Below are positions 30,092 through 58,882 of a stretch of 64,000 nt of DNA, piece after piece. Where the stretch lies: the NCBI GenBank assembly GCA_029547185.1, contig JAKPPU010000046.1:1-64000 (forward strand), given 5' to 3'. Within the stretch, counting starts at the first letter, position 1. Each line of letters opens with the position of its first letter. Origin of the DNA: Deltaproteobacteria bacterium (GTDB lineage Bacteria; Desulfobacterota; Desulfomonilia; UBA1062). The translations under genes and the position numbers were made by a program. The notes under the pieces were generated by a model. The model saw nothing but the letters and a program-made list of their open reading frames with translations. It did not search any database and was not told where the DNA came from.

Positions 30092-30092
30092 A

Positions 30093-33492: not shown

Positions 33493-33587
33493 ATATTAGA
33501 CCCCGAGACAGATTTTTTAAGAGAGGTGCACCGGTCGTCAGGAAAGCATGGGTTTTTTAACAGGATGAAAACGAGTGGGGAACGATA

Positions 33588-42452: not shown

Positions 42453-42466
42453 CAAAGGCACGGGAA

Positions 42467-42504: not shown

Positions 42505-42548
42505 TGAAAAACTCTGTGGAAGCTACTCACATTTCCGGGAAGGGGAGC

Positions 42549-42725
42549 ATGGATAAGGTGCTGGGGACTATTCAACGTTACGGAAATTCAATTCATGGCT
42601 GCTCCCGCCTTTGCAGCGTACTCGATGCCGTATCGACATATCGCATTGACTGTCTGTACGAGAGATGCATCCATCCCATCTTCTCCAGGAAGGGTGCTTC
42701 ACATTGCAGACAACGAGAAGCATAA
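42549..42725 (+). CDS. Possible small protein, 58 aa
   Basis: The ATG at 42549 follows GGGAAGGGGAGC, a good ribosome binding site, and opens a 58-residue frame with five cysteines (HGCSRLCSVLDAV, CLYERC). No family is recognised. An overlapping frame (42595-42813) is also open, so codon preference does not decide. It lies between a hairpin and the helical-protein gene. Weakly supported. Confidence 0.25.
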   Translation: MDKVLGTIQRYGNSIHGCSRLCSVLDAVSTYRIDCLYERCIHPIFSRKGASHCRQREA

Positions 42726-42799
42726 AAACAGGGTCGGCATAATGGGGCCAGCCGTATGGTGTCTGGGAGCTGAAGCAGCTCATGAGGAGGATCTCGGGC

Positions 42800-44080: not shown

Positions 44081-44081
44081 A

Positions 44082-45215
44082 ATGATTGGAAAGGTCGAGG
44101 GTATTGTGGATACCCTGTACAATGAATATGTACAGAAATATAAGGCTGGCGGGGGAAAGGTCGTCGGATATTCATGCACCTTCATCCCTGAAGAGATACT
44201 CCATGCGGCCGGGGTACTCCCTTTCAGGTTGAGGGGTATCGGTATCAAGTCGCTTTCCATAGGGGATTCCTACTTCGGACCGGTTAACTGCAGCTTTCCC
44301 AAATGTATGGTCCAGCTCGCAGGCCAGGGCTCGTACAGCTTTCTTGATGGTGCCGTCATCACGAACGGGTGTGATTCCATGCGGCGCCTGTATGAGTGCT
44401 GGAGGAAGGCAAGCGAGGACCATCCCGGAACTCTGCCGCCATACTTCGAGTATTTCTCCGTGCCTCATAAATCCGTGGACTACAGCATAGATTTCTATGA
44501 GGGAGAGTTGCGCAACTTTATACACTCACTTGAGAAACACTTCGAGGTGGAGATCCAGCATAAAAATATCAAGGAGGCCGTCAAACTCTATAACGAAGGG
44601 AGAATGCTCCTCCAGAAACTCGATGCCGTGAGGTACAGCGAACATACCCCTATCTCGGGTGAGGATGCGATGGCTGTCCTGATAGCAGGCCATGCCATGC
44701 CTCGTAAGCAATTCAATTCCATACTTAAAAAGCTCATCACGGGGCTCGATCAGGCCCAAAATGTCTCTGATGGGAAAAAGCGACTGCTTCTCGTTGGAAG
44801 CGCAAGCGACGATCTCGACTTCATCCGGGTCATTGAGGAGGCAGGTGCCGTTGTCGTTGCCGAAACCGTGTGCTTCGGCTCACGTTCCTATGCAACCCTC
44901 GTGGATGAGACGGGAGACCCGGTCCGCGCCCTTGCCTCCCACTACCTCAAGAGCAGCGTCTGTCCCCGCAAGCTCGGATATTACAAGGAACGCAGGTCCT
45001 ATATCCTTGATATCGTGAAGAAGGCCCGCATTGATGGCGTCGTTCTCCAGAACATCAGGTTCTGTGATCTCCACGGGTCTGAAAACGGGGTACTTGAGCG
45101 GGATATGGAGGCGGCCGGGATTCCCTGTATGCGGCTGGAAAGGGAATACGGCCCCCTGGTGGAAACCGGAAGGATCAGGATGCGCATCGATGCATTCATC
45201 GAGCGCATCTCGTAG
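44082..45215 (+). CDS. 2-hydroxyacyl-CoA dehydratase / benzoyl-CoA reductase small subunit (module A)
   Basis: HgdB/BcrC-type subunit, 377 aa, binding a [4Fe-4S] cluster for radical or ATP-driven reduction of a CoA thioester. KVVGYSCTFIPEEILHAAGV with Cys32, ITNGCDSMRRL with Cys97 and QNIRFCDLHGSEN with Cys328 are the three conserved cluster cysteines; REYGPLVETGRIRMRIDAF is the family C-terminus. The substrate cannot be told: the family covers 2-hydroxyglutaryl-CoA, phenyllactyl-CoA and benzoyl-CoA. It begins module A, followed by a small protein, the larger subunit and two activases. Confidence 0.88.
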   Translation: MIGKVEGIVDTLYNEYVQKYKAGGGKVVGYSCTFIPEEILHAAGVLPFRLRGIGIKSLSIGDSYFGPVNCSFPKCMVQLAGQGSYSFLDGAVITNGCDSMRRLYECWRKASEDHPGTLPPYFEYFSVPHKSVDYSIDFYEGELRNFIHSLEKHFEVEIQHKNIKEAVKLYNEGRMLLQKLDAVRYSEHTPISGEDAMAVLIAGHAMPRKQFNSILKKLITGLDQAQNVSDGKKRLLLVGSASDDLDFIRVIEEAGAVVVAETVCFGSRSYATLVDETGDPVRALASHYLKSSVCPRKLGYYKERRSYILDIVKKARIDGVVLQNIRFCDLHGSENGVLERDMEAAGIPCMRLEREYGPLVETGRIRMRIDAFIERIS

Positions 45216-45274
45216 ACCACGCCCACCTACGTTTCAGTTAGGCGGTTTGGAGAGAGAATCAAAGGAGGTTTGAG

Positions 45275-45514
45275 ATGTGCCAGATTGATAGAAATTCCAT
45301 TGCCGTGGAGGTCCTGCGCGATATCGCCCTGGATGAAGGCAGGATGGTGGCGGAGAGACAGCGGGCCATTGATGCGCTGACCCTCTTCCCGGCAACGGCG
45401 GTTGCAGCGCTCGAGTATATCTCACGCAAGGCCGGCCTTGATGTCTTAAAAGAAAGGGCGGAGCTCTACGTCAAGAGGATAAAATCCGGGGCTGTTCTCA
45501 ACATGTCGGCTTAA
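45275..45514 (+). CDS. Small helical protein between dehydratase subunits, 79 aa
   Basis: Not recognised. Begins MCQIDRNSIAVEVLRDIALD after the strong site AAAGGAGGTTTGAG. It is predicted helical, with one Cys at position 2 and no cluster motif. Its position between two subunit genes, with gaps of 59 and 13 bases, suggests an accessory subunit or assembly factor of module A. Module B has no equivalent. Confidence 0.7.
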   Translation: MCQIDRNSIAVEVLRDIALDEGRMVAERQRAIDALTLFPATAVAALEYISRKAGLDVLKERAELYVKRIKSGAVLNMSA

Positions 45515-45527
45515 CACCGGGGGTGCC

Positions 45528-46934
45528 ATGAAGAAAGAAACTCGTGAATATAATTACGACTGGATGCTGTGGAGCCTTTTCGATGCAGGCAGTAAGGTTA
45601 CCGACGGCACGAAGAAGGAATTTGAGGGACTGCTGAGTGTCCTGCCGAGCTTCAGTAAGGTGCTGGTCACGATCCTCAGGCATGGTGAATCGGGCAGGCT
45701 GTTTCTGAAGATGTTTTCCGAGTACCTCGGAGATGTCCTCACAGCTCACGCGATGGGCAAGAAGCTCTGCCTCGGCACCTTCGTGACGGCCAAGCACATC
45801 ATGTACGCCTTCGACAATGTCGTGCCGGTGTGGGCGGAGCCCATGACCGTGTTCGGGACCCTTGCGTTGAGGAAGGCTACTTCCGAATACATGGACTACT
45901 GCTGCGAGCTGGGGTTCACCGAGACCTCGTGCTCAGCGCAGCGGGGGTCGCTCGGAGCCTACCTGGCGGGCCTTGCAGAAATGCCTGATTTCATGGTCTG
46001 CGGAGCGCCGGGCATCTGTGACACCAACGCAAATGCGATTCAGTTCATGTCCTCCTATCTCGATATTCCCCTCTTCCAGCTCAATTTCCCTGCTACCCTC
46101 ACCGAAGAAAGGGTTATCGACTACCACCGCAAGGATCTCAGGGCGCTCATCTCGTTCGTAGAGGAGCAGGCAGGGAGCAAGATCAACGAGGACAAGCTCA
46201 GGGGAGTCCTGGAGGAACAGAAGATCCAGGATGAGCTGAGCATCGAGTTCTACGATTACATGAGGCTCAAGCCGTGCCCCGCTCCCCCCATTTTCCAGTT
46301 CTTCTACTATGCGGGAAGGCTCACCATGCCCGGCAGGAAGGTCTATACCGAGCTGCTCCAGGCCATGATGAAGGTCGTCAGGAAGAATGCAGCGGCAGGG
46401 ATTGCCGGGACCTTCTCGGGCAGAGAGCGAGCCCGCCTCATGATGTGTTATATAGAACACTACACCTCGGACGGGCGTTTCTGGGAATGGCTCGATACCC
46501 AGGAAATCAGTCTTCTCCCATCACTCATCTTCACCTTCTGGCACGAGGGGGCCTGCTACACCGAAGGCCGGGAGGCCGAGACCTACCGTATCGATACATC
46601 GACCCTGGATTCCATGATCGATACCCTTGCCGACCTCAACTCCCGCATGCCCATGGTCAAGCAGCTCAGGGGGCCTTACGACGCGCCGCACATGTGGCTC
46701 GATGATCTGAGGGGCCTGGCCAGGATAAACAAGCCCGACCTCCTCGCATATATCGGCAGCATGGGGTGCAGAAACAGCTGGGGCGCCAACAAGCTCATCC
46801 AGCGGGACATGGAGCGGGAAGGGGTGCCGACCATGCTTCTCTTCGCTGATGCCTTCGACGATCGGGTCGTCTCCTGGGAGTCTTGTGTAGAGAAGCTGAA
46901 TGAGTTCATGCACGTAAGGAGGATCATGGCATGA
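45528..46934 (+). CDS. 2-hydroxyacyl-CoA dehydratase / benzoyl-CoA reductase large subunit (module A)
   Basis: HgdA/BcrB-like subunit, 468 aa. Cysteines in FTETSCSAQRG (135), CGAPGICDTNAN (158, 164) and GSMGCRNSWGANK near residue 410 occupy the places of the family's cluster ligands. ILRHGESGRLFLK and HMWLDDLRGLARI are seen in homologues of this size class. It should pair with the 377-aa subunit to make the catalytic heterodimer. The stop overlaps the first activase start by four bases. Confidence 0.83.
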   Translation: MKKETREYNYDWMLWSLFDAGSKVTDGTKKEFEGLLSVLPSFSKVLVTILRHGESGRLFLKMFSEYLGDVLTAHAMGKKLCLGTFVTAKHIMYAFDNVVPVWAEPMTVFGTLALRKATSEYMDYCCELGFTETSCSAQRGSLGAYLAGLAEMPDFMVCGAPGICDTNANAIQFMSSYLDIPLFQLNFPATLTEERVIDYHRKDLRALISFVEEQAGSKINEDKLRGVLEEQKIQDELSIEFYDYMRLKPCPAPPIFQFFYYAGRLTMPGRKVYTELLQAMMKVVRKNAAAGIAGTFSGRERARLMMCYIEHYTSDGRFWEWLDTQEISLLPSLIFTFWHEGACYTEGREAETYRIDTSTLDSMIDTLADLNSRMPMVKQLRGPYDAPHMWLDDLRGLARINKPDLLAYIGSMGCRNSWGANKLIQRDMEREGVPTMLLFADAFDDRVVSWESCVEKLNEFMHVRRIMA

Positions 46935-47713
46935 TCGCCGCTGGATGTGACGTAGGATCGCTGACGACCAAGGCGGTCATTCTCAACAACACCAGAATCA
47001 TAAGCCAGGCAGTGGCAAAGTCGTCGTTCAACCCCGAGGATTCCGCAAGGGAGGTCATGCAGAACGCATTGACGGCAGCAGGCCTCGGTATGGGAGATAT
47101 AGGCTTCTGTGTGGGCACAGGCTATGGCAGGGAGAGGATCCCCTTCGTGGGCAAGGCCGTTTCCGAAATAGCCTGCCATGCCAAGGGCGCCCATTGGCTG
47201 CTGCCAACGGTCAGGACCATTATCGACATCGGAGGCCAGGACTGTAAGGCCATTCGCCTTGATGCAAAGGGAAACGTTGTCAAGTTCATCACCAACGACA
47301 AATGTGCATCGGGCACGGGCAGGTTCCTCGACGTCATGGCGAAGGTGCTCGGGGTGGGAATAGATGAGCTGGGCGGCCTGTCCGCCCGGGCCGCCGATCC
47401 CGTCGTCCTTGCCGCAACCTGCACGGCCTGGGCGCAGGCCGAGGTCATCGTACACCTGAATGCGGGGACGTCCAGAGAAGATATTGCCGCAGGCATCAGT
47501 GATGCCATGGCTGCACGGGTGGCCATCCTTGCCAGGGCGGTGAGCATCGAGAAGGACGTGTGCATGAGCGGCGGTGTGGCGAAGAATACCGGAGTGCTCA
47601 AGTCATTGGAAAATCAGCTGAATGTTCCCATGCGCAGGCTCAGGATAGATCCGCAGGTGGTCGGCGCGCTGGGCGCTGCCATATTCGCCAGGGAAAAGAT
47701 GGAGGGCAGGTGA
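46931..47713 (+). CDS. CoA-dehydratase/reductase activase (BcrA/D-HgdC family), copy 1
   Basis: ATPase of the BadF/BadG/BcrA/BcrD family, 260 aa, of the ASKHA fold. GCDVGSLTTKAVIL binds phosphate, FITNDKCASGTGRFLDVM carries the first cluster Cys (125) and the second Cys is 164. The segment after Cys164 reads CTAWAQAEV instead of the usual C..FAESE, an unusual change. The dimer holds one [4Fe-4S] and passes an electron to the dehydratase on ATP hydrolysis. Paired with the next gene, it may form a heterodimer like BcrA/BcrD. Confidence 0.92.
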   Translation: MIAAGCDVGSLTTKAVILNNTRIISQAVAKSSFNPEDSAREVMQNALTAAGLGMGDIGFCVGTGYGRERIPFVGKAVSEIACHAKGAHWLLPTVRTIIDIGGQDCKAIRLDAKGNVVKFITNDKCASGTGRFLDVMAKVLGVGIDELGGLSARAADPVVLAATCTAWAQAEVIVHLNAGTSREDIAAGISDAMAARVAILARAVSIEKDVCMSGGVAKNTGVLKSLENQLNVPMRRLRIDPQVVGALGAAIFAREKMEGR

Positions 47714-48501
47714 TGTACGTTGCAGGATGCGATATCGGCTCTTTGAGCGCCAAGGCAGTCATCATGGAGGATGAACGGATTGTATCGACGCATGTGATCT
47801 TTGCCAAGCCCGAACCGGACGAATCAGCCCGTGAGGTGATGGGTGAGGCCCTGAAGAAAGCCGGCATCACCCGCGAGGATATCTCATTCTGCGTTGCCAC
47901 GGGGTACGGCAGGAACAACATATCCCTGGCCGATTCAGCGGAATCGGAGATCGCCTGCCACGGCAAAGGCGCGCAGTGGCTCATGCCCGATGTGCACATG
48001 GTAATCGACATCGGGGGCCAGGATGCCAAGGCCATACGGCTCGATTCTTCAGGCAACGTGGTCCGGTTTGCCTACAACGACAGGTGTGCCTCGGGAACGG
48101 GAAGGTTCCTCGAGGTCATGGCGGGGGCGATGGGTATCGGGGTCGAGGACATGGGAGATATTTCATCCGGCTCGAAAAATTCTGTTTCCATCTCAAACCA
48201 GTGTGTAGTTTTCGCCGAGACTGAGATCATCTCCCTCATCAACGCGGGAAAACAGCTTCCGGACATCGTGAAGGGTCTCCACAATGCCCTGGCCCACAGG
48301 GTAGCGGCGCTTGCCAGGGGGATCGAGCTGGATAAGGAGATTACCATGACCGGCGGTGTGGCGAAGAATAACGGGATGTTCACAGCCCTCCAGGAGGCTC
48401 TCGGGCAGAAGATAAGGAAGATGGACACCGACCCGCAGATCGTAGGCGCGCTGGGTGCGGCGCTTTTTGCACGCCAGATCGCTCAGGACACGAAGCGCTA
48501 G
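47713..48501 (+). CDS. CoA-dehydratase/reductase activase (BcrA/D-HgdC family), copy 2
   Basis: Second ASKHA ATPase, 262 aa, sharing one base with the previous gene (TGATG). GCDIGSLSAKAVIMED, YNDRCASGTGRFLEVM (Cys125), SNQCVVFAETEI (Cys164) and the ADP-site TMTGGVAKNNGMFTAL are all normal. The tandem of two different activases is the hallmark of class I benzoyl-CoA reductase and favours that comparison over HgdC, which is a homodimer; this is inference. Confidence 0.93.
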   Translation: MYVAGCDIGSLSAKAVIMEDERIVSTHVIFAKPEPDESAREVMGEALKKAGITREDISFCVATGYGRNNISLADSAESEIACHGKGAQWLMPDVHMVIDIGGQDAKAIRLDSSGNVVRFAYNDRCASGTGRFLEVMAGAMGIGVEDMGDISSGSKNSVSISNQCVVFAETEIISLINAGKQLPDIVKGLHNALAHRVAALARGIELDKEITMTGGVAKNNGMFTALQEALGQKIRKMDTDPQIVGALGAALFARQIAQDTKR

Positions 48502-48509
48502 GGGTTGAT

Positions 48510-49250
48510 GTGGAACTCTTTGAAAAGATCATCACCCCAGTGCTCTCATACACCGAAGAACAGCCGGACAGGCGGTGTTGGTCTGCTGACACGGACATGC
48601 AGTGGCCGGCAGGCGGTTACGGGAGAATCGTATTGAAGGAGGACATGGGGCTCGAACTCGGCAGTCCGGAGAAGGAATCCCTCTCCTGCCTGCTGTGGAC
48701 CGAAAACCTCACCCTCATCACGGACAGCAGAATTACCCTGGTCGGTCCGGATTTTTCTGAGAGTATCGGCCAAAGTCTTCCTTTCGGCAAGGTTGTTCTC
48801 GTGGGGGTGACGGGATTCGACGAAGACAACGCTTATGAACGGCATAAGGAACTCGATTTCCTGAGGTATGACATCGATCTCACGGGTTTCATGATGAGGG
48901 CTGTCTCCCAGTATATGAAAGAATGGTGCAGGGTCAATCATGAGGCAGTAGCAAATGGCTTCTCCGCGAAGGTTCTCGGTTCATCTCTGATAAGGCTCCT
49001 CCGGAAAAAGCCTTATGTGGTGTCCGCAGAGGTGATTTTCTTCACATCCAGCACGGAGGCAGTGCGCAGGCTCAGAGAGATAACGGCCCCGACAGAGAAG
49101 ATCGTTTCAGCAATGGATAAAATGGCGGCGGAAATGGACTTCGAATGCGAGAGTTGTGATTACCAGGAGGTTTGCGAAGAGGCAGACGGCCTCAGGCTCA
49201 TGAGGGACAAGCTCATGGCCGGAAAGAAGGAGGCGGCACCGTATGGCTGA
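48510..49250 (+). CDS. Stand-alone domain resembling the acetyl-CoA synthase beta subunit (CdhC) N-terminal part
   Basis: 246 aa, start GTG at 48510 after TAGGGG. The order VLKEDMGLELGSPEKES, RITLVGPDFSE, SLPFGKVVLVGVTG, then RHKELDFLRYDIDLTGFMMR and EVIFFTSSTEAV follows the CdhC/AcsB segment that precedes the A-cluster. It ends in FECESCDYQEVC, spaced like the first three [4Fe-4S] cysteines of the A-cluster (212, 215, 222), then stops: the rest of the A-cluster, including the nickel-binding Cys-Gly-Cys, is missing. Hence it cannot be a complete acetyl-CoA synthase. It overlaps the CooC-like gene by 8 bases. Its role is unknown; a metallocentre assembly or docking protein is one guess. Confidence 0.6.
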   Translation: MELFEKIITPVLSYTEEQPDRRCWSADTDMQWPAGGYGRIVLKEDMGLELGSPEKESLSCLLWTENLTLITDSRITLVGPDFSESIGQSLPFGKVVLVGVTGFDEDNAYERHKELDFLRYDIDLTGFMMRAVSQYMKEWCRVNHEAVANGFSAKVLGSSLIRLLRKKPYVVSAEVIFFTSSTEAVRRLREITAPTEKIVSAMDKMAAEMDFECESCDYQEVCEEADGLRLMRDKLMAGKKEAAPYG

Positions 49251-50013
49251 TACCACGATTCTGGCTCTGTGCGGCAAGGGCGGCGTCGGCAAGACCTCAA
49301 TCGCTGCCCTCATGGTAAAGCTGCTGTCTGAAAGGAACGATCGGAAGATCCTTGCCATCGATGCGGACCCGGCCGTCGGTCTGGCATCGGCACTGGGCAT
49401 GACGGTGAGGAAGACCGTCGACGACATCAGGAAAGAGCTCATCGGCAACATTCGGAAGAGTGCATCTCCGGGGCAATTGGAAACGTTGAAATCCCTTGAC
49501 TATGAAATGCTCGATGCCCTTGAGGAGCAGGGCAGATTTGCCCTGCTGGCTATCGGCAGGTCTGAGGACGAGGGGTGCTTCTGCCGGATAAACAATCTTC
49601 TCAAGGATATCATCAATGACCTGGCAGACAAATTCGACATCGTGCTCATCGACGGTGAGGCAGGCATCGAACAGATCAACAGGCGGGTCATGAAGACCGT
49701 TGATCAGCTGGTCCTCGTTTCCGACACCTCTGCGAAAGGAATAGGGGTAGCCAACACCATCGCACATGTCGCTCATGAGAAGAAGGCCGTCGATTTCAAG
49801 AGCATGGGGCTCGTTCTCAACAGGGTGAGAACCCAGGCCGAGGTGGATGGCATCAGAGCCAGGACGCGCATCCCCATCTATGGATGGATACCCGAGGATG
49901 ATCTGGTCAGGGAGTATGATTACAAAGGCCGATCTCTGACAGGGATGTCCAGTGATTCTTCAATGCTCTCTGCCCTTGCCGGTATGCTGGAGAGGATGGT
50001 GAAGCCTGCGTGA
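49243..50013 (+). CDS. CooC-like nickel-insertion/activation ATPase
   Basis: Deviant Walker-A ATPase of the ParA/Mrp group, 256 aa. ALCGKGGVGKTSIAALMVKL, IDADPAVGLASALGM, the GCFCRINNLLKDII segment typical of CO dehydrogenase maturation proteins, and VLIDGEAGIEQINRRV. CooC/AcsF proteins use ATP to insert nickel into CODH or ACS. No CODH lies here, so in this cluster it may serve the adjacent ACS-like domain or another metallocentre. Translation is coupled to the preceding gene. Confidence 0.85.
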   Translation: MADTTILALCGKGGVGKTSIAALMVKLLSERNDRKILAIDADPAVGLASALGMTVRKTVDDIRKELIGNIRKSASPGQLETLKSLDYEMLDALEEQGRFALLAIGRSEDEGCFCRINNLLKDIINDLADKFDIVLIDGEAGIEQINRRVMKTVDQLVLVSDTSAKGIGVANTIAHVAHEKKAVDFKSMGLVLNRVRTQAEVDGIRARTRIPIYGWIPEDDLVREYDYKGRSLTGMSSDSSMLSALAGMLERMVKPA

Positions 50014-50029
50014 AGACCTTTGTCTACAA

Positions 50030-50049
50030 GACGGTTTGCCGTCCCTTTT
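50030..50049 (+). terminator. Weak hairpin between modules A and B
   Basis: GACGG-TTTG-CCGTC followed by CCTTTTC, 17 bases past the CooC-like stop. Short stem, so at best partial termination. Confidence 0.3.
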
Positions 50050-50151
50050 CGTTATCAGGGTTATGTGCGTCGTTTTCTCCCAAGTTCCAATCGAGCCCTC
50101 TCCCCCTGGTGCCGGGGGCGGGGGCCGTTCTTTTCAAAGGATGAGGGCATT

Positions 50152-51294
50152 ATGGACGTAAAGAGAGATGGCATTTTCAAAGAAATGGAAGGTATCCTGG
50201 CAAGTCCGCAAAACCACCTCCTGGAGAAGGCAGTCAAAGCCGGACGCATACCCATCGGATACACGTGCAGTTTTGTACCCGAAGCCCTTCTCATGGCAGA
50301 TGCCCTCGTTCCGGTCCGCGTGAGGGCTCCCGGGACTGCAGGAACGGAGATAGCAGACAACTATCTTTCAAACTTCATATGCTCTTATACCCGAAGCCTG
50401 CTCGAATCCGTCGTGGCCGACAGGTACGATCTGATACGCGGCTGGGTGTTCGTGCCGTCGTGCGCCCACATGCAGCGGCTCATCGACAACGTGCATTATC
50501 TGAAAAAACTCGAATTCAGCCATGTGCTGGATGTCCCTCATAAAAGCACCGCCATGCATGTCGAATGGCTGACGGAAGAGTATGCCGTCCTCGCAGACAA
50601 GCTCTCGTCTCATTTCGGAGTCGATCTGAGCGACGAGGCCCTTGCCAAGGCCGTTGGAGGGTGGAATGAGTTCGTGGAGGTGATGAAATCCATCGGAGAG
50701 CTTCGGAAAAGACCCGAATCGCCCATTACCGGAACCGAATTTCATCTCCTTCTCATGGCCGCCCAGGTGTCTCCGAAAGACATGATCCTTCCCTATCTCC
50801 TCGAAGCGAAGGAAAAGCTTGAGGAGAGGGGCGGCAGTGGCAGGAAGGTGCGTGCTCGCCTGATGCTCATCGGGGGAGAGCTCGATGATCCCGAATATAT
50901 CAGGGTCATAGAATCGCAGAACGCCGTCGTGGTCGCGGATCGCACCTGCACCGGATCGATCCCGGGGCTGACTCCAATAGAACTGAACGGCGGTCCTCTA
51001 ATCAAGACGCTTGCCGAGCACTCCTTCAAGAAGACGCTCTGCCCCAGAATGATGGAAGATTTCGATCGCAGATTGCAGATCATTCTCGATACCGTACGGG
51101 AGTACCGGGTGGATGGGGTAGTGATCGAGGTCATAAAATTCTGCGATCTCTGGGGTGTGGACATGGTCCCGATGGTGAAAGCCATCAGGAGTGAAGGCAT
51201 ACCGGTTCTGAAGCTGGAGCGTGAATACCGTTTGAGCGGAGAGGGCCAGATAAGAACCAGGGTCCAGGCCTTCATAGAGAGCATGGGGAAATGA
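50152..51294 (+). CDS. 2-hydroxyacyl-CoA dehydratase / benzoyl-CoA reductase small subunit (module B)
   Basis: HgdB/BcrC-type, 380 aa, parallel to the module A subunit. PIGYTCSFVPEALLMADALV (Cys39), FVPSCAHMQRLI (Cys104) and EVIKFCDLWGVDM give the cluster cysteines; LEREYRLSGEGQIRTRVQAF is the C-terminal signature. ATG 50152 follows AGGATGAGGGC; the open frame reaches 50020 but lacks a start signal. It heads module B. Confidence 0.88.
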   Translation: MDVKRDGIFKEMEGILASPQNHLLEKAVKAGRIPIGYTCSFVPEALLMADALVPVRVRAPGTAGTEIADNYLSNFICSYTRSLLESVVADRYDLIRGWVFVPSCAHMQRLIDNVHYLKKLEFSHVLDVPHKSTAMHVEWLTEEYAVLADKLSSHFGVDLSDEALAKAVGGWNEFVEVMKSIGELRKRPESPITGTEFHLLLMAAQVSPKDMILPYLLEAKEKLEERGGSGRKVRARLMLIGGELDDPEYIRVIESQNAVVVADRTCTGSIPGLTPIELNGGPLIKTLAEHSFKKTLCPRMMEDFDRRLQIILDTVREYRVDGVVIEVIKFCDLWGVDMVPMVKAIRSEGIPVLKLEREYRLSGEGQIRTRVQAFIESMGK

Positions 51295-51310
51295 CCGGCT
51301 GGAGGGAAGG

Positions 51311-52843
51311 ATGGATATACAGGGCATGATAACCCGTTCAAGAACCTTGGCCATGGGGATTCCGTCCAAGATGAAGGCGTTTTTTCAGAACTCTGTCGCC
51401 GGGTTCCTGATCGAATCGAAAAACATCGGTGATTCGGCGATCTATATCAAATACTGGGCGCTCACATGGGCTGCCATCTTCAAGCTCATCCTCAAGCTGC
51501 TCTTCAAGAAGGGGCCTGTCGTTCTCGTCCGCGAGCTCATGCATTACCCCTGGCTGTTCGTCTTCCTCAGGGCGACCGGCCTGATGCGTCGGTTCACCCG
51601 GGGGAGAAAGGGGCACTACCTCGAATCGACATGCCTGATCGTTTACTACATCGCCCTTACGGTCGTCCAGATCATGGAGAACATCTTCTATCGTCCCGAG
51701 CGTGTGATCATCGGCGAGGACCTCGTTACACCGGAGATTCCTTTCGCCATGGGTCTTCATACCTGGCAGCTCGAGGACTTCGGCATACTGCTGCCGTTCA
51801 TCTATCCCGAGTTTGCCCAGAAATACATAGACGCATCGGAGAACGAAGGCATCAATCCCGATGCCTGCAGCTTTGTGAAAAACGCCGCGGGAATGATCCT
51901 CAAAGGCCACATGCCCAAAGGGGTTGCCATCATAAGCTCCAATATGCCCTGCGATGCGGGCGCCACTATATATTCCTTCGTTCAGAGGGAATATAACGTC
52001 CCGATATACCGCCTCGATGTACCGTACAATTTCTACAACGACCGTGCAGAAGATCTGTTCACCAAGGACCTCAAGGAAATGGTCAAGTGGCTGGAGCAGC
52101 ACACACCGGGACGCATGGACTGGAACCGGCTCAGGGAAGTCTGTAAGGCGCGCAACCGCATGATGGAGCTCGAGCTCGAGCTGTGGGAGATGCTGAGGAT
52201 CAAGCCGGCCCCTCTTGCCGCCGAGGCCATGTACTTGAGTCATATGTGGTTTTTCTATGTCGTTCCCGGGGACAAGTTGTCCGTCAGTTTGTTTGAAAAG
52301 CTGGTAGATCTTGCACGAAAGAATCTGAAATCGGAGGCGCATGCCGTAGAGCCCGAGAGGTACCGGGCGGTGCTCTGGAACCCCCCGTTCCCCCATTATC
52401 CGTACATCATCAACGACATGGAACGTGCATACGGAATTACGCTCATCATGGACAGCATGACCTACAACCGGCACAAATTCATTGACACATCCACTCCGGA
52501 TTCCATGCTAAAAGGACTGGCTCATATCATGATGCAGGGTCCGATGGTGCGCCATACCCGTGGGCCTGCCGAAAACTATCTCGACGACATCTTCCGCATC
52601 TACAAGCAATTCGATCTCGATATGGTGTGGATCGCCAACCATGTAGGCTGCAAGAGCGGTCAGGCAATGAACGGTATACTCCGGGAAAAATGCCGCGAGA
52701 TGAAGATCCCCCTCCTCATACTCGATTACGATCTCATCGATCCCCGCATAGTCTCACACGAAGGTATGGTCAGGCAGGTCGACTATTTCATGGAGAACGT
52801 GATGAGGGCGAAACGTCTCGAAGGCCGGATTCAGGAGGGTTGA
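51311..52843 (+). CDS. 2-hydroxyacyl-CoA dehydratase / benzoyl-CoA reductase large subunit (module B)
   Basis: Large subunit, 510 aa, longer than its module A counterpart by about 40 residues at the N-terminus, where a hydrophobic segment occurs (YWALTWAAIFKLILKLLFKK, residues 48-67). Cysteines in INPDACSFVKN (186), SNMPCDAGATI (214) and NHVGCKSGQAM match family ligands. A membrane-associating stretch in such a subunit is unusual. Start ATG 51311 follows GGAGGGAAGG. Confidence 0.83.
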   Translation: MDIQGMITRSRTLAMGIPSKMKAFFQNSVAGFLIESKNIGDSAIYIKYWALTWAAIFKLILKLLFKKGPVVLVRELMHYPWLFVFLRATGLMRRFTRGRKGHYLESTCLIVYYIALTVVQIMENIFYRPERVIIGEDLVTPEIPFAMGLHTWQLEDFGILLPFIYPEFAQKYIDASENEGINPDACSFVKNAAGMILKGHMPKGVAIISSNMPCDAGATIYSFVQREYNVPIYRLDVPYNFYNDRAEDLFTKDLKEMVKWLEQHTPGRMDWNRLREVCKARNRMMELELELWEMLRIKPAPLAAEAMYLSHMWFFYVVPGDKLSVSLFEKLVDLARKNLKSEAHAVEPERYRAVLWNPPFPHYPYIINDMERAYGITLIMDSMTYNRHKFIDTSTPDSMLKGLAHIMMQGPMVRHTRGPAENYLDDIFRIYKQFDLDMVWIANHVGCKSGQAMNGILREKCREMKIPLLILDYDLIDPRIVSHEGMVRQVDYFMENVMRAKRLEGRIQEG

Positions 52844-52959
52844 GAGGGAACCCTTGCAGCATTCGCGCTTCCTCCGGATGGCCGGAATGGACGGCAAGGG
52901 ATGGTTTCTCGAGTTCCGGGCTCATACTTGAAGAAGAAATAAAGAAGAAAGGAACCGCT

Positions 52960-53751
52960 ATGAAATTTTTCGGTGGATGCGACGTGGGATCAACGACAGG
53001 CAAGGCCGTTATCATGAACGGGAGCACAATGGTTGCATCAGCCATCATCCCGAGCGAGATCGATCCTGAAGAAACAGCGGTGTCGGTATTGGAAAAGGCC
53101 TGTTCGCAGGTTCAGGGACTCAGCTCGTACAAGGATCTCGCTTACCTTGTGGGAACGGGATACGGCAGGAACGAGGTTCCATTCGCCCATGAGAACATCT
53201 CCGAGATCAGCTGCCATGCCATGGGTGTCTTCCACTGCAATGCCGAGATCAAGACCATCGTCGATATCGGAGGGCAGGACATGAAGACGATCACGGTCAA
53301 TCATGACGGATCGGTCCTCGAGTTTGCCATGAACGACAAATGCGCCGCCGGCACGGGGCGTTTCTATGAGGCCATGGCACGGGTCTTTCGCATGGACTTG
53401 GACCGGTTCTCCGCGCTCTCCCTCCAGGCGCGCAATGTCATCCCGGTGACTTCCCAGTGCAGCGTTTTTGCCGAGAGCGAGGTGATCAGCCTTCTTGCGA
53501 AAAGGAACCCTCCCGAGGATATCGCAGCGGGCATCCAGGCGGCTGTATCGAAACGGTGCTTCACTCTCCTCAAGCGGATAGGCATGAAGCCGCTGGTGAC
53601 GGTGACAGGCGGGTGTGCCAAAAACCAGGGGCTCATCAAGTCTCTTTCCAGGATCATCAATATGCAGGTGACGCCGCTGCCCATCGATCCGCAGATCATC
53701 GGGGCGCTCGGCGCAGCAGTGTTTGCAATGCGCAAGGGGTTGTCTTCATGA
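52960..53751 (+). CDS. CoA-dehydratase/reductase activase (BcrA/D-HgdC family), copy 3
   Basis: ASKHA activase of 263 aa. GGCDVGSTTGKAVIMNG, the cluster Cys128 in AMNDKCAAGTGRFYEAM and Cys167 in TSQCSVFAESEV are canonical; VTVTGGCAKNQGLIKSLS has an extra Cys next to the Gly-rich loop. RBS GAAAGGAACC before ATG 52960. As the only activase of module B it may act as a homodimer, in contrast to the pair in module A. Confidence 0.93.
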   Translation: MKFFGGCDVGSTTGKAVIMNGSTMVASAIIPSEIDPEETAVSVLEKACSQVQGLSSYKDLAYLVGTGYGRNEVPFAHENISEISCHAMGVFHCNAEIKTIVDIGGQDMKTITVNHDGSVLEFAMNDKCAAGTGRFYEAMARVFRMDLDRFSALSLQARNVIPVTSQCSVFAESEVISLLAKRNPPEDIAAGIQAAVSKRCFTLLKRIGMKPLVTVTGGCAKNQGLIKSLSRIINMQVTPLPIDPQIIGALGAAVFAMRKGLSS

Positions 53752-53789
53752 CGGCCCATAAAAATACCAAGAAGGAGAAAGGAGTTGCA

Positions 53790-55475
53790 ATGAAACATCA
53801 GAACAAGCCCTGGCTCTCATCGTATGCCCCCGGCGTCCCCGCGAGCATCAATTTCGAGACCTTGTGCCTGCCAGACTTCCTGGAGAGAACGGCGCGTGAG
53901 TTTCCGGAGCATATGGCGCTCAATTTCATGGGATGCACTTTGACCTTCAGGGAACTGAAAGACATGGTAGACCGCTTCGCGAGCTGTCTTCTGGAGTTCG
54001 GCATACAAAAGGGAGAAAGCGTCGCCATCATCCTGCCGAACACCATCCAGTGCGTGGCTGCGTATCAGGCCATTCTGAAGATCGGGGCCATCGCCGTCAT
54101 GAACAATCCCCTCTACTCGGACAAGGAGCTTCTGCACCAGTTTACCGATTCCGGGGCCAGGGCACTCATAACCATAGATCTCATCGCAAACAGGATGATC
54201 GACCTGAGGCCGAAGACCGATATCAGGCAGATCGTCGTAGCCTCGATAGGCGACTATCTCCCATTTCCAAACAACCTTCTCTTCCCCCTTGTGGCCAAGA
54301 AGAAAGGACTTGCCGCCGATGTGAAGAAGGCCGAGCAGGTATACCGATGGAAGGATCTGATCTCACGATCCAGGCCAAGGAGTATACAGGCGAAGCTCTC
54401 CTTGGATGACATTGCCCAGTACCAGTACACCGGCGGGACGACGGGGGTCTCGAAGGGCGTGGAGCTTACTCACGGGAATCTGGCCAAGAACGTCCAGCAG
54501 CTCGCCGCGTGGTTCCCGAACCTCCAGCGGGGCAGGGAGGTGATGCTGGGGGCGTTGCCCCTGTTCCATGTATTCGGGCTGACCGTAGCGATGAATTATC
54601 CGATCTTCATGGGATGGGGGAGTGTGCTCGTGCCGAGGCCTCAACCCCAGCAGCTCTTCGAGGCACTCTCCAAGCACAAGCCGACGTTCCTGCCCATGGT
54701 TCCGACCATGTACATCGGTCTGCTCAGCCACCCCAAGATCAAAGAGCTCGACCTGAGCAATGTGACGGGATGCTTTTCGGGGAGCGCCCCTCTTCCCGTC
54801 GATGTGATCAAGAAGTTCGAGGAGATGACCGGCAGTGTCATCTGCGAAGGGTTCGGCATGACGGAATCTTCGCCGGTCACGCACATCAATCCCTTCGGAA
54901 AGGGGAAGACCAAGCCGGGGAGCATAGGGCTTCCGATATCGAATACCGAGTGCCGGCTCGTGGACATCAATGACCAGCAGACCGACGTAGCACCGGGAGA
55001 ATCAGGAGAGCTCATCATACGGGGACCGCAGGTCATGAGGGGGTACAAAGACAAGCCTGAGGAAACCCAACAAGCGCTCCGCGACGGATGGCTTCATACG
55101 GGTGATATCGCAACGATGGACGAAGACGGATATTTCTATATCGTTGACAGGCTCAAGGATATGATCATTTCGGGCGGATACAATGTCTATCCCCGGGACA
55201 TCGACGAGGTGATCTATCAGCATCCCAAGGTCCTGGAGGCATGTACGATAGGCGTCCCGCACTCCAGCCGCGGAGAGTCCGTCAAGGTGTTTGTGGTTCT
55301 CAAACAGGGACAGCAGGCAACTGCTGAAGAAATCATCGGCTTCTGCAAGGATAAGCTCGCCAAATACAAGTGGCCGGAGGAAATCGAGTTCAGAGAGACG
55401 CTCCCCAAGAGCACGGTGGGCAAGATCCTCCGAAAGGACCTCCGGTCAGAAGAGCTGGCCCGGAGGACAGCATAG
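53790..55475 (+). CDS. Acyl-CoA synthetase (AMP-forming)
   Basis: Adenylating ligase of the FadD type, 561 aa. P-loop YQYTGGTTGVSKGVELTHGN, CEGFGMTESSPVTHINP, the YKDKPEET...GWLHTGDIATMDEDG hinge region, and the catalytic Lys in PKSTVGKILRKDL. Starts at ATG 53790 behind AAAGGAG; another ATG at 53748 overlaps the activase stop. FadD-like sequence suggests a fatty or alicyclic/aromatic acid substrate. It supplies the CoA thioester for the neighbouring reductase modules, by inference from position. Confidence 0.92.
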   Translation: MKHQNKPWLSSYAPGVPASINFETLCLPDFLERTAREFPEHMALNFMGCTLTFRELKDMVDRFASCLLEFGIQKGESVAIILPNTIQCVAAYQAILKIGAIAVMNNPLYSDKELLHQFTDSGARALITIDLIANRMIDLRPKTDIRQIVVASIGDYLPFPNNLLFPLVAKKKGLAADVKKAEQVYRWKDLISRSRPRSIQAKLSLDDIAQYQYTGGTTGVSKGVELTHGNLAKNVQQLAAWFPNLQRGREVMLGALPLFHVFGLTVAMNYPIFMGWGSVLVPRPQPQQLFEALSKHKPTFLPMVPTMYIGLLSHPKIKELDLSNVTGCFSGSAPLPVDVIKKFEEMTGSVICEGFGMTESSPVTHINPFGKGKTKPGSIGLPISNTECRLVDINDQQTDVAPGESGELIIRGPQVMRGYKDKPEETQQALRDGWLHTGDIATMDEDGYFYIVDRLKDMIISGGYNVYPRDIDEVIYQHPKVLEACTIGVPHSSRGESVKVFVVLKQGQQATAEEIIGFCKDKLAKYKWPEEIEFRETLPKSTVGKILRKDLRSEELARRTA

Positions 55476-55603
55476 TCACAAGATCAAACGATTGGAGATT
55501 TTTCAGGGAAGCCGTGAAGGCAGGAGCCCCGATGAAGGAAGTTCCTCGCCCGGCTTTAAGGATGAAAGAAAGGGGTATCCTGTAATCGGATAAAGGAGGC
55601 GGC

Positions 55604-57568
55604 ATGGGCAGAGGGTACATGGGGAGGATCTTGAAGGTTGATCTCGGGAGAGGCACTATCGCCGAGGAGGAAGTCCCGGATGAGATGTATGAGAGGTATC
55701 TCGCCGGGATGGGACTGGCAGCTCATATTCTGTATGACGGGATCCCCCCCGGCGCCGACCCGCTCGGCCCGGACAACATCCTTGCCTTCGTCTCGGGCCT
55801 TCTGACCGGAACAGGGAGCCTTTTTTCCGGACGGTGGACCGCGGCGGCAAAGTCGCCGCTCACCGGAGGATGGGGCGATGCGAACTGCGGCGGAACGTTT
55901 TCACCTGCCATAAAGCGCTGCGGGTACGATGGGATCTTCTTTTCCGGGATAAGTGAGAAACCCGTACTGCTCTATGTGAAGAACGACAGGGCCGAATTGA
56001 GAGATGCCTCGCATCTCTGGGGAAGGGATACGACAGAAACAGAAGACATGCTGAGAGCAGACTACGGTCCTCATGCAAGCGTGGCGGTGATAGGCCCGGC
56101 AGGCGAGAGGCTCTCGCTGATTTCCGGCATCAGCAACGATAAGGGAAGGCTCGCCGCACGGTCCGGCCTCGGGGCGGTCATGGGTTCCAAGAGGCTCAAG
56201 GCGGTCGTGCTCGACGGTAAAAAACGCATCAGCGTGCACAACCGGGAGGAGGTGCACCGGCTCAGCAGGATCTGCAACCGATGGGTGCAGTTTCAGATCC
56301 CTTTGGGCCCCAGCCCCGTCTTGGCATATCTGGGAGCGCTCCTCCGCATACTCCCTACTGCCATGGCCATGGACGGCATGATCTACAAGTTCATGCTCAG
56401 GCAATGGGGAACCGCCGCCATGAACCAGATGTCGCCGGAGTGGGGGGATTCGCCGGTAAAGAACTGGAAGGGAAGCAACAAGGACTGGAACATGGTGAAG
56501 TCCAAATCTGCGGACCCGGATATGATCAAGCGCCACGAGATCGTGAAATACCACTGCTATTCCTGCCCGCTCGGATGCGGGGGCATCTGTTCGTATCCGG
56601 GTCAGTACAAGGAGAGCCACAAGCCCGAGTACGAGTCAGTCCTCGCCCTTGGCGGATTGTGCATGAACGAGGACACAGACAGCCTCTTCTATCTCAACGA
56701 ATACCTCAACAGGGCCGGGATGGATACCATCTCGGCCGGCGCAACGGTGGCGTTTGCCATGGAGTGCTATGAAAAGGGGATCATTACAAAGAAAGACACC
56801 GGGGGTATTGAGCTGACCTGGGGAAATGCCAAGGCAGTGACCGAGCTCATCCACAAGATGGTGAACCGTGAAGGGATCGGGGACGTGCTGGCAGACGGAG
56901 TAAAGATGGCGGCGGAGAAGATCCGCAAGGGTTCTGAAGCATACGCCATCCATGCCGGTGGACAGGAGCCGGCCATGCACGACGGCAGGATGGACCCCGG
57001 ATTCGCTGTGCATTACTCGGTTGAGCCCACACCGGGGAGACACACCATAGGCGCCCAGCTGTACTATGAAATGTTCCAGCTCTGGAAACGGGTCAAGGGC
57101 ATACCGAAGAAGATCCCCTTCCAGATCTATACGAAGAACGGCCGCTACTCCCCGGACGAGAAGAAAGCCCAGGAAAATGCCGCGTGCAGCAAATACATGA
57201 ATATCGTGAACGGATCCGGACTGTGCATGTTCGGCACCTTCCTCGGGATTACGAGAACCCCTACGTTCGACTGGCTCAATGCAGTTACGGGATGGGACAA
57301 GACACCGAACGACTACATGGATATTGGCGAGCGCATCCAGACCATTAAGCAGGCCTTCAACATCAAGCAGGGGATTGACCCAAAGGCCAACAAACTGAGC
57401 GGCCGGGCACTGGGCATGAAGCCCATGAAGGAGGGTGCCAACAAGGGAAGAAGCGTGAATATCGAGACGATGATGGGCAACTACTGGGAGCAATTCGGAT
57501 GGGATCCGAAAACGGGCGTGCCTACCAGGGAACGTCTTGAGCGGTTCGGTATACGTCCCTGGCGATGA
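55604..57568 (+). CDS. Aldehyde:ferredoxin oxidoreductase family protein (BamB-like)
   Basis: Tungsten- or molybdenum-bispyranopterin enzyme of the AOR family, 654 aa. GRILKVDLGRGTIAEEEVPD, AKSPLTGGWGDANCGGTFSP and ARSGLGAVMGSKRLKAVVLD are family motifs; the [4Fe-4S] ligands are CYSCPLGC (318, 321, 325) and Cys541 in GSGLCMFG. Such proteins include BamB, the active-site subunit of class II benzoyl-CoA reductase, and plain aldehyde oxidoreductases; by eye I cannot choose. Directly followed by a polyferredoxin, as BamB is by BamC. Confidence 0.88.
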   Translation: MGRGYMGRILKVDLGRGTIAEEEVPDEMYERYLAGMGLAAHILYDGIPPGADPLGPDNILAFVSGLLTGTGSLFSGRWTAAAKSPLTGGWGDANCGGTFSPAIKRCGYDGIFFSGISEKPVLLYVKNDRAELRDASHLWGRDTTETEDMLRADYGPHASVAVIGPAGERLSLISGISNDKGRLAARSGLGAVMGSKRLKAVVLDGKKRISVHNREEVHRLSRICNRWVQFQIPLGPSPVLAYLGALLRILPTAMAMDGMIYKFMLRQWGTAAMNQMSPEWGDSPVKNWKGSNKDWNMVKSKSADPDMIKRHEIVKYHCYSCPLGCGGICSYPGQYKESHKPEYESVLALGGLCMNEDTDSLFYLNEYLNRAGMDTISAGATVAFAMECYEKGIITKKDTGGIELTWGNAKAVTELIHKMVNREGIGDVLADGVKMAAEKIRKGSEAYAIHAGGQEPAMHDGRMDPGFAVHYSVEPTPGRHTIGAQLYYEMFQLWKRVKGIPKKIPFQIYTKNGRYSPDEKKAQENAACSKYMNIVNGSGLCMFGTFLGITRTPTFDWLNAVTGWDKTPNDYMDIGERIQTIKQAFNIKQGIDPKANKLSGRALGMKPMKEGANKGRSVNIETMMGNYWEQFGWDPKTGVPTRERLERFGIRPWR

Positions 57569-57586
57569 AGGGCACGGAGGTGTGAC

Positions 57587-58018
57587 ATGGCATTCCAGAT
57601 AACCGGAAAGTGCAACGGATGCGGAGCCTGCAGCAGAATCTGTCCTGTCGGGGCCATATCCGGGGAAAAGAAGAAGGTCCACAAGGTTGACGAACGGCAA
57701 TGCATCGAATGCAGCGCATGCGGAAAGGTGTGCTCCCAAGGCGCCGTTCAGGACAGGTTCGGAGTGATCCGAAAGATGGAGAAGCGGGCTCTATGGCGAA
57801 AACCCGTCTTCACGCATGAAAGGTGCATGTCCTGCACGATCTGTGTGGAGGCCTGCCCGGTGAACTGCCTGGCCTTGTCGCAGCAGCGGGGGCCTTCCGA
57901 TCCTCACACGTACCCTTTCCTGAAAGACGAGAAGGCATGTATCGGGTGCGGATTCTGCTCTATAGAATGCCCTGTCGGATCGGTTCGCATGGAGGTGCCG
58001 GATCAGTCTGCACCTTGA
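57587..58018 (+). CDS. Polyferredoxin, four [4Fe-4S] clusters
   Basis: 143 aa with four cluster motifs: CNGCGACSRICP, CIECSACGKVC, CMSCTICVEACP and CIGCGFCSIECP. Each is complete except that Cys groups 2 lacks the final Pro. No signal peptide. 18 bases after the AOR gene, so it is likely its electron-transfer subunit, analogous to BamC or the AOR ferredoxin. Confidence 0.93.
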   Translation: MAFQITGKCNGCGACSRICPVGAISGEKKKVHKVDERQCIECSACGKVCSQGAVQDRFGVIRKMEKRALWRKPVFTHERCMSCTICVEACPVNCLALSQQRGPSDPHTYPFLKDEKACIGCGFCSIECPVGSVRMEVPDQSAP

Positions 58019-58048
58019 CTCCCCCGGGCTTGAGAAGGAGGGCGCCGG

Positions 58049-58882
58049 ATGGATATCACGATAGTGTATTTTTCTCAGACGGGAAACACCAAGAAAGTGG
58101 CTCTGGCCATGGCGGATGAGTTCCAGGAACAGGGGCATAAGGTAAACGTCACGTCATGGAAGGACGTGCGGCTTTCCGATATCGCCGGATGCAGCGTTCT
58201 GGGAATGGGATCACCGTGTTTCGAGAGCCAGGCCCCCGCTCCCGTCAAGGCATTCCTCAAGGGACTGCCTCTGTTGAAAGGAAAAACCGCCTTCGTTTTT
58301 GCAACCTGTGGAGGGGCCCCGGGAAGGATTCTCATTGATCTGTCAAAAGGACTGAAGAAAAAGAAAGCCCGGGTTATCGCCGGATTCATGTGCCATGGAG
58401 AGGTCCATCATCCGGCCCCCTGTCTGAAAGGACGGTTGCCGGGACGTCCCGGCGAGGAAGACCTCACCCTTGCCAGAGATTTTGCTCGAGCCATTGTCAC
58501 GAACACTGCAGCGGGATGTACAGCGCCCCTTTCTGGTGAATGGAGCGACTTGCTGAAACCCGGCTTGAGCTTCTATCACCTGGTGTCATTCATAGCAAAG
58601 CCGCCTCTGGTGAGGATTCTCCTTCCAAAGCCCACACTCGTTGCCTCCCGTTGCAACAGGTGCGGGCTCTGTGCACGGGAATGCCCTGCAGGGTGCATCT
58701 CTTCGGAGCAGGAACCAGTTCCCGGAAGCGCCTGCATCAGGTGCTATCGCTGCCTCAAGGTATGTCCGAAAACAGCTTTCCGTGTTTCATGGTGGTACGG
58801 AAATCTCGTGATATGGGCGCTCTATAATAAGCTCTTCTCGCGGCTTTTCGGCGATCTGAAGCCGGATGAACGCATATATTGA
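58049..58882 (+). CDS. EFR1-type flavodoxin-ferredoxin fusion
   Basis: 277 aa. Residues 1-165 are flavodoxin-like, with the FMN phosphate loop YFSQTGNTKKVALAM and FATCGGAPGRI; residues about 200-245 hold two [4Fe-4S] sites, CNRCGLCARECPAGC and CIRCYRCLKVCPKTA. The domain order is that of EFR1 family proteins common in anaerobes. It probably links the polyferredoxin or the activases to cell electron pools. Confidence 0.9.
   Translation: MDITIVYFSQTGNTKKVALAMADEFQEQGHKVNVTSWKDVRLSDIAGCSVLGMGSPCFESQAPAPVKAFLKGLPLLKGKTAFVFATCGGAPGRILIDLSKGLKKKKARVIAGFMCHGEVHHPAPCLKGRLPGRPGEEDLTLARDFARAIVTNTAAGCTAPLSGEWSDLLKPGLSFYHLVSFIAKPPLVRILLPKPTLVASRCNRCGLCARECPAGCISSEQEPVPGSACIRCYRCLKVCPKTAFRVSWWYGNLVIWALYNKLFSRLFGDLKPDERIY

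Follow-up and report, generated by a model that had tools for sequence, protein, structure and literature searches.

Two probable double-cubane-type reductase modules encoded together with a stand-alone acetyl-CoA synthase middle domain and a CooC-type ATPase in a Desulfomonilia genome

The DNA analysed here (the window) is a stretch of 64,000 nucleotides, positions 1 to 64,000 of contig JAKPPU010000046.1 from a Deltaproteobacteria bacterium of the UBA1062 lineage (Desulfobacterota; Desulfomonilia; assembly GCA_029547185.1), and its subject is a cluster of sixteen genes which run in one direction on the + strand at 41133-58882. Intergenic gaps range from -8 to 138 bases across 42782-58882, a spacing which fits a single operon. 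The centre of the cluster is made up of two modules, each encoding a small and a large HGD-D subunit, with two further genes placed exactly between them. The names used for these genes (S1, L1, ACSm and so on) were coined in this analysis; loci, genomes and contigs are coded L###, G### and C###, and G000 is the window genome. Module 1 contains the small subunit S1 (44082..45215; PF06050, E 1.1e-86), a 79-aa open reading frame (ORF) at 45275..45514, the large subunit L1 (45528..46934; PF06050, E 4.4e-41), activase 1 (46931..47713; TIGR00241, 242.2 bits against a cut-off of 125.4, also PF01869), which we take to have the fold of an ASKHA-type ATPase, and activase 2 (47713..48501, with its start set at 47713; TIGR00241, 254.1 bits, also PF01869). 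ACSm, a stand-alone acetyl-CoA synthase (ACS) middle domain of 246 aa (48510..49250; PF03598, E 3.9e-12), and a CooC-type P-loop ATPase with a C-x-C motif (49243..50013; best PDB match CooC 3kje, E 1.2e-19) follow. Module 2 consists of S2 (50152..51294; PF06050, E 6.3e-80), L2 (51311..52843; PF06050, E 2.8e-53) and activase 3 (52960..53751; TIGR00241, 223.4 bits, also PF01869). The listed ORFs at 47560, 50020, 52627 and 53457 were found to be overlong by gene caller and homology start corrections. An earlier sequence-only reading of this DNA had named two small-plus-large pairs and three activases, and both were confirmed by four PF06050 proteins on one strand at 44082-52843 and by the three activase assignments above; the CoA ligase, aldehyde:ferredoxin oxidoreductase (AOR) family protein, ferredoxin with several Fer4 motifs and EFR1 protein that it had listed are likewise genes of the cluster, and ACSm, CooC and the conserved 79-aa ORF had been overlooked.

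In the class I benzoyl-CoA reductase BzdNOPQ (PDB 8s02), the [8Fe-9S] double cubane is reported to be bound by Cys36, 73, 100, 263, 293 and 327 of BzdN, and the catalytic [4Fe-4S]-OH2 cluster by Cys95, 128 and 380 of BzdO (available text of PMC11971306). The small subunits encoded near ACSm, counting those of 330 aa or more and including S1 and S2, have Cys at all six BzdN positions in 42/42 cases. Across all aligned small subunits 46 of 47 keep the six Cys, the lone failure being a HadC-like paralog encoded at another place in the window genome; HadC itself reads PCCACC at these positions, with Pro and Ala at two of them. The 61 aligned large subunits, which include three window-genome paralogs outside ACSm clusters, have the three BzdO cluster Cys in 61, 61 and 57 cases, and one of those without the third Cys is cut short. 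Both L1 (C135, C164, C414) and L2 (C186, C214, C447) keep all three. A Glu stands 31 residues ahead of the first cluster Cys in 58/61 large subunits and BzdO Glu65 stands 30 ahead of Cys95, a match by spacing only. The bzd-type ligand set, six Cys in the N and three in the O subunit, is thus found in S1, S2, L1 and L2, and class I MbdN itself is without three of the six. These alignments exclude three small-subunit pieces called in L102 and L103 (below 330 aa), a large subunit of L034 (below 380 aa) and all of L042-L045, L001 and L002.

A tree of small subunits was built with 51 rows; its references sit on long branches, and DCCP is represented by a partial row. All 42 ACSm-linked small subunits group together in this tree as a single clade (support 97/92) which excludes BzdN, HadC, MbdN, DCCP and five window-genome paralogs; HadC and the one HadC-like paralog from the window genome are placed outside it, at the ends of long branches. 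The clade shows kinship among its members, not that every member of the branch has ACSm. The ACSm-linked small subunits look like a distinct double-cubane reductase branch, and the S/L pairs look like class I-type reductases, not dehydratases. The best NCBIfam model for S1 and S2 was DCCP NF040772 (182.2 and 150.4 bits, under the cut-off of 350). DCCPs share the six Cys and are homodimers (available text of PMC11971306), whereas each cluster S is encoded with a three-Cys L. None of the bzd/bcr NCBIfam equivalogs was matched over cut-off (S1, 146.6 against 453.8 for BzdN; L2, 40.7 against 448.6 for BzdO), and activases 1 and 3 also scored below the BzdQ equivalog cut-off of 380.2 (204.8 and 166.7). 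By cut-off, S1 and S2 fall in no curated bzd/bcr or DCCP family. A DCCP which does exceed the NF040772 cut-off (448 bits against 350) lies elsewhere in the window genome (L024:11173-12357, G000:C215).

The AlphaFold2 model of ACSm (pLDDT 89.5) gave 9c0s_E as its top Foldseek match (E 6.7e-11), and 23/23 matches at E <= 0.001 were chains of carbon monoxide dehydrogenase (CODH)/ACS. A C-terminal C-x2-C-x5-C triad is invariant in 36/36 ACSm sequences. When aligned by MAFFT with the sister-family true ACS (L061-L072), the first two Cys of the triad fall on the first Cys of the segment CTLCQSFAPSHVC, which we take to be the start of the A-cluster of ACS; MAFFT left the third Cys unaligned, and in our own reading it would match ACS by the same V-C context. 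ACSm resembles AcsB/CdhC in its middle domain and in having a Cys triad where the A-cluster begins. The ACS middle domain has been proposed to interact with CoA (available text of PMC12289521). The cluster CooC has the deviant Walker A motif GKGGVGKT, with C-x-C in 28/28 and the P-loop Lys in 27/28 aligned sequences (the CooC of L042, which contains a stop, was omitted). Both features are shared with CooC nickel insertases. In CooC1, Cys112/114 lie at the dimer interface and bind zinc and nickel, and CooC loads nickel for CODH (available text of PMC6006190). The cluster CooC differs in being encoded with HGD-D reductases.

The distribution of these genes was surveyed within the phylum, using an order sample of 24 genomes of the window genome's order and a phylum sample of 395 genomes. 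ACSm was matched in 19/24 order genomes at E <= 0.001, one match (G019, E 4e-4) being a long frame next to CODH and probably an ordinary ACS, which leaves 18 order genomes with ACSm. The phylum sample gave ACSm matches at E <= 1e-20 in 28/395 genomes, of which 11 belong to the window's order and 17 to nine further families. CooC of the cluster type (at least 53% identity) is present in the same 18 order genomes (the G014 copy contains one stop) and, as a piece at a contig end, in G018. CODH exceeded the cut-off in 4/24 order genomes and, among the 18 with ACSm, in G000 and G011 only (archaeal-type CODH models were not searched), so that 16/18 carry ACSm with no CODH over cut-off, 12 of these 16 being at least 90% complete. 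A Prismane-family (PF03063) protein was present in 23/24 order genomes, only four of which had one over the CODH cut-off; those under it are taken as candidate hybrid-cluster proteins. Because ACSm and CooC are kept in order genomes without CODH over cut-off, and because two separate CooC homologs (33-34% identity) are encoded on the CODH contig of G000 (C195), ACSm and CooC probably serve the HGD-D system, and a role for them as CODH helpers is disfavoured.

Besides the window, 39 ACSm neighbourhoods were fetched (19/19 of the order and 20/22 outside it), with presence counted within 9 kb of ACSm. ACSm matches at G042:C234 and G081:C103 and two loci from a related-locus search of genome contigs stand outside the 39. 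Large HGD-D subunits and activases were each present in 36 neighbourhoods, small subunits in 32, CooC in 31 and a 432-aa protein in 18, and ACSm with a large subunit spans ten families; by comparison, the stretches of G000 that are no more than 9 kb from an HGD-D cluster add up to about 3% of the genome (a hand-derived figure). Two neighbourhoods without a large subunit, L040 and L104, have ACSm 0.4 and 1.2 kb from a contig end, and those without an activase are L039, L040 and L101. Among the 24 order genomes there are 22 S1-type places (at least 53% identity), 13 of which share a contig with ACSm; for seven of the remaining nine the contig ends within or before activase 2, i.e. before the ACSm position. 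S2-type places (at least 62% identity) were on an ACSm contig in 9/9 cases, one of which is a contig-end fragment. The two parallel class I/HGD-D-type modules in one redox cluster which the sequence-only reading had described are thus accompanied by conserved synteny.

The fullest gene order, a composite of several loci, comprises two acyl-CoA dehydrogenases (ACADs) and two helical proteins, a TetR gene, a helix-turn-helix (HTH)/Fer4 protein and the core: ACADa-ACADb-helical-helical-TetR-432aa-S1-79aa-L1-act1-act2-ACSm-CooC-EFR1-S2-L2-HTH/Fer4-act3. The smallest unit, ACSm-CooC-S2-L2-act3, was seen in L105, L107 and L108. Homologs of the 79-aa ORF, which was called by coding score and gave nothing above cut-off in the family search, were present in 14/39 ACSm neighbourhoods. 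The EFR1-type flavodoxin-ferredoxin closes the window cluster (58049..58882; NF038196, 104.8 bits against a cut-off of 75), and a homolog (52-57% identity) lies inside the core, adjoining S2, in L028, L034, L092, L093 and L095. The CoA ligase, the AOR and the polyferredoxin are outside the conserved core. A second, divergent S1 module with ACSm and CooC is present in the window genome (L023, G000:C27:30000-49000); genes for two ACADs, helical proteins and TetR precede it, and S2-L2 were not found in that stretch.

The reading which we prefer, and which we regard as evenly poised, is that the cluster encodes two related ATP-driven double-cubane radical reductases of the superfamily of class I benzoyl-CoA reductase, 2-hydroxyacyl-CoA dehydratase (HAD) and DCCP, equipped with a metal-handling pair of their own. 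The conserved ligands predict an [8Fe-9S] double cubane in each S and, in each L, a catalytic [4Fe-4S]-OH2 cluster bound by three Cys. Activases 1 and 2 would form a heterodimeric activase for S1-L1, like BzdPQ for BzdNO, and activase 3 a homodimer serving S2-L2. Low-potential electrons would reach the activases from the EFR1 protein, the ferredoxin or the HTH-Fer4 protein of relatives; the activases would spend ATP and the electrons would pass to the double cubane of S, then to the L cluster and on to an acyl-CoA-type substrate, by analogy with BzdNO (available text of PMC11971306). CooC and ACSm may have been taken over from CODH/ACS systems as a chaperone and its client. CooC nickel loading is known likewise for ACS, and the cluster CooC would supply the Cys triad of ACSm with a metal, nickel being the likeliest; this nickel role is a tentative assignment in which our confidence is below even. 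ACSm may then dock on the reductase as a metal donor, an extra redox subunit or a CoA-binding adaptor. We advance more tentatively still the wider proposal of a nickel-dependent branch of the benzoyl-CoA reductase/DCCP family, in which CooC would put nickel on ACSm and ACSm would work with the ATP-powered double-cubane reductase.

Several observations weigh against these proposals. The 42 small subunits were gathered by nearness to ACSm, and their clade is set only against four references and five paralogs. His replaces the third cluster Cys in three ACSm-linked large subunits (L099 and two in L101), where the conserved Glu is also gone. BzdO His131 is replaced in 61/61 large subunits, where the position three residues beyond the second cluster Cys holds N (31), G (21) or other residues (9); His131 is also missing from the ring reductase MbdO in the alignment, and its loss is therefore not decisive. 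The best PDB score of S1, 142.1 bits to BzdN, is nearly tied with HadC at 141.5 (for S2 the scores were 109.5 and 81). No invariant Cys beyond the Fe-S ligands was found in the S and L alignments to mark a nickel site, so the ACSm triad would be the likeliest extra metal site; ACSm, unlike AcsB/CdhC, is the 246-aa middle domain alone, with neither the N-terminal domain nor the rest of the C-terminal A-cluster domain. CooC is missing near ACSm in 8/39 neighbourhoods; in L039, L099 and L100 the sequence on one side extends for only 2-4 kb, and the CooC of G008 and G009 is encoded on another contig. Two S1 modules have room for ACSm and are without it (G009:C173 and G007:C50), G009 having ACSm on two contigs other than C173. 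The G007 locus (L126) contains the 432-aa protein, S1, the 79-aa ORF, L1 and one activase, is without ACSm and CooC, and is flanked by AOR, GMC and ACAD homologs (30-34%). Finally, L094 is a true exception with ACSm, CooC, two activases and zero HGD-D subunits within 9 kb; its neighbours at 5222-9377 are a thiolase, a CoA ligase, parts of a biotin-dependent carboxylase and an ACAD.

Downstream of module 2 the window cluster encodes an AMP-forming CoA ligase, of fatty-acid type by NCBIfam models (53748..55475), which overlaps activase 3 by 4 bases, and the AOR family protein (55604..57568; AFOR_C, E 9e-103). The best NCBIfam models for the ligase are long-chain fatty-acid ligases, below their cut-offs (PRK06710, 583 bits against 1116), and its score to the benzoate-CoA ligase model is 235.5 bits, under the cut-off of 375.25. 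The AOR scored 343.6 bits to 1aor and 212.8 to BamB (4z3w), about 130 bits nearer the plain AORs. The class II (BamBC-like) parts proposed in the sequence-only reading were rejected on these scores of the AOR, no search with Bam subunit models having been made; the shared feature is an AOR superfamily protein in the cluster. Of its expectation for the phylogeny the separation of the small subunits from the dehydratase HadC, by Cys signature and tree, held, whereas the AOR fell on the side of plain aldehyde oxidoreductases. In L096 a 62% homolog of the window AOR adjoins an acyl-ACP thioesterase. A second AOR, 74% identical to that of the window, is encoded at G000:C12:88433-89593 on a contig without an HGD-D match. 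The fatty-acid-type ligase, the ACAD pair and TetR gene of relatives and the thioesterase beside the AOR in L096 all point to acyl chains, and an acyl-CoA or lipid seems a likelier substrate than benzoyl-CoA; within the mechanism outlined above it would more likely be a long-chain or otherwise hydrophobic acyl-CoA.

The alternative which survives best, although we think it unlikely, is that both S-L pairs represent new benzoyl-CoA-type reductases of class I which work in aromatic-acid degradation, with the CoA ligase activating the acid. BzdN is the best PDB score for both small subunits (the near tie of S1 with HadC apart), the L subunits have BzdO-type Cys, and S1-L1-act1-act2 has the gene content and, presumably, the order of bzdNOPQ. 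The ACADs of relatives could also act on alicyclic acyl-CoAs, their best NCBIfam model being cyclohexane-1-carbonyl-CoA dehydrogenase (98.4 bits against a cut-off of 650). Against it, the scores to the bzd/bcr equivalogs are far below cut-off, His131 is not conserved (as in MbdO), and the cluster differs from the bzd system in its added ACSm and CooC and in the missing benzoate-type ligase. The ring hydrolase BamA/Oah exceeded the cut-off in 0/24 order genomes, in a search which was over it in 0/14 control genomes as well and so had no positive control, and no benzoate-CoA ligase exceeded the cut-off in the window genome, the only order genome searched (1/14 control genomes was over it). Because of these two negatives benzoyl-CoA is disfavoured as the substrate, and the path from an acid to a reduced ring that the sequence-only reading had thought plausible did not find support.

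Less probable again is a split, multi-subunit relative of PlsA/Ger, which would convert lipid ester bonds to (vinyl) ethers or supply fatty aldehydes or alcohols for lipids. The two activase domains per chain in validated Ger (available text of PMC13274423) recall the adjacent activases 1 and 2, and the fatty-acid-type ligase, the thioesterase beside the AOR in L096 and the ACADs of relatives would suit such a role. Known PlsA-like proteins, however, are multi-domain chains, whereas the subunits here are separate and the longest HGD-D frame of G000 is 521 aa. Moreover, Desulfatibacillum Ger made ethers in E. coli, and a CooC or ACSm partner is unmentioned in the available text of that report (PMC11150832).

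We consider it improbable that the modules encode 2-hydroxyacyl-CoA dehydratases, similar to HgdABC, HadABC or FldABC, which would remove water from a hydroxyacyl-CoA. HadBC (2-hydroxyisocaproyl-CoA dehydratase) belongs to the same superfamily and shares the use of an activase, S2-L2-act3 has a single-activase layout, the PDB score of S1 to HadC almost equals that to BzdN, and among NCBIfam models L1 and L2 score best to HadB (40.6 and 49.9 bits, far under the cut-off of 750). The six Cys in 42/42 small subunits, against Pro and Ala at two of these positions in HadC, disfavour a dehydratase, as do the separate long branches of HadC and the HadC-like paralog. It is very improbable that ACSm and CooC merely remain from a former CODH/ACS operon and lie beside HGD-D genes by chance, since, although both are homologs of CODH/ACS parts and two S1 modules with room are without ACSm, a large HGD-D subunit accompanies ACSm in 36/39 neighbourhoods over ten families, the Cys are invariant (36/36 in ACSm and 28/28 in CooC) and the pair persists in 16 order genomes in which no CODH exceeds the cut-off.

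The remaining genes of the window cluster lie at its two ends. A short GMC-type FAD oxidoreductase of 439 aa (41133..42452; PF00732, E 1.5e-14) is accessory. GMC homologs adjoin the core in L096 (47%), L098 (45%) and L100 (36%) and an S1 module in L126 (34%), and AOR homologs adjoin the core in L096 and L099; within 9 kb of ACSm two of each were found in the 39 neighbourhoods. Directly before S1 is the conserved, all-helical 432-aa protein (42782..44080; AlphaFold2 pLDDT 75.4), which belongs to no family, with zero Pfam or NCBIfam matches and zero PDB fold matches at E <= 0.001. A ferredoxin with several 4Fe-4S motifs (57587..58018; Fer4, Fer4_7 and related) lies between the AOR and the EFR1 protein. 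Directly upstream of the cluster, at 36578-40817, are a PAS histidine kinase and a sigma-54-type response regulator; the sigma-54 promoter (-24/-12) pattern gave 28 matches in the window against 24.3 expected, i.e. no signal. A protein of 891 aa at 33588-36263 combines a GltD-like NAD/FAD part with Fer4 motifs, and its N-terminal part is distantly like the HTH-Fer4 proteins of relatives; its size and make-up are reminiscent of the putative isoprene reductase IsrA (available text of PMC10134865). A phytoene-desaturase-like flavoprotein is encoded at 30497-32188, four homologs of which (22-25% identity) stand in a row next to activase 3 in L034 (8969-15770). Five tRNA genes lie at 29655-30091, after which the G+C content falls from about 0.58 to 0.46-0.48 (30001-38000); the tRNA cluster and this fall may be a possible island edge.

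In the literature, a cluster combining HGD-D with CooC or with an ACS domain was undescribed in titles and abstract openings, a coverage that leaves out most subscription journals and bioRxiv, and within the same coverage the term 2-hydroxyglutaryl-CoA dehydratase was never paired with nickel insertion. The available text of PMC13056359 ties CooC to CODH operons, with dehydratase, activase, benzoyl and double-cubane unmentioned there. Among the papers listed, the terms CooC and benzoyl-CoA reductase occur together in PMC4148979 and PMC2996986. The isr operon of the putative isoprene reductase, which has HypA/HypB genes beside the reductase (available text of PMC10134865), may be a partial precedent, being alike in its nickel chaperone genes by a non-hydrogenase reductase and unlike in the chaperones and the kind of reductase. 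Two other candidates were rejected: the 'Magic' cluster of anaerobic benzene degradation has a different gene set, with CooC, CdhC, acetyl-CoA synthase, BcrAD, GMC and UBA1062 missing from the available text (PMC13101534), and the MCR activation complex, considered for its ATP-driven transfer of electrons to nickel as a potential forerunner, shows no kinship to HGD-D or activase in the available text (PMC12176620).

The recurring partners of these reductase modules suggest that the family may have a branch, possibly nickel-dependent, which has gone unrecognised. The benzoyl-CoA reductase/HAD/DCCP family performs some of the hardest one-electron reductions in biology. The five-gene unit of L107 and L108 is small enough for expression and testing. 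If the proposal is true, a nickel module of the CODH/ACS type and an ATP-driven iron-sulfur radical reductase would be joined in one enzyme system, and a CooC-type protein would gain a client other than CODH/ACS. Two metal-enzyme worlds of ancient origin would be connected by a reductase branch whose recurrent companions are a truncated acetyl-CoA synthase and, in most cases, a nickel-insertase homolog.

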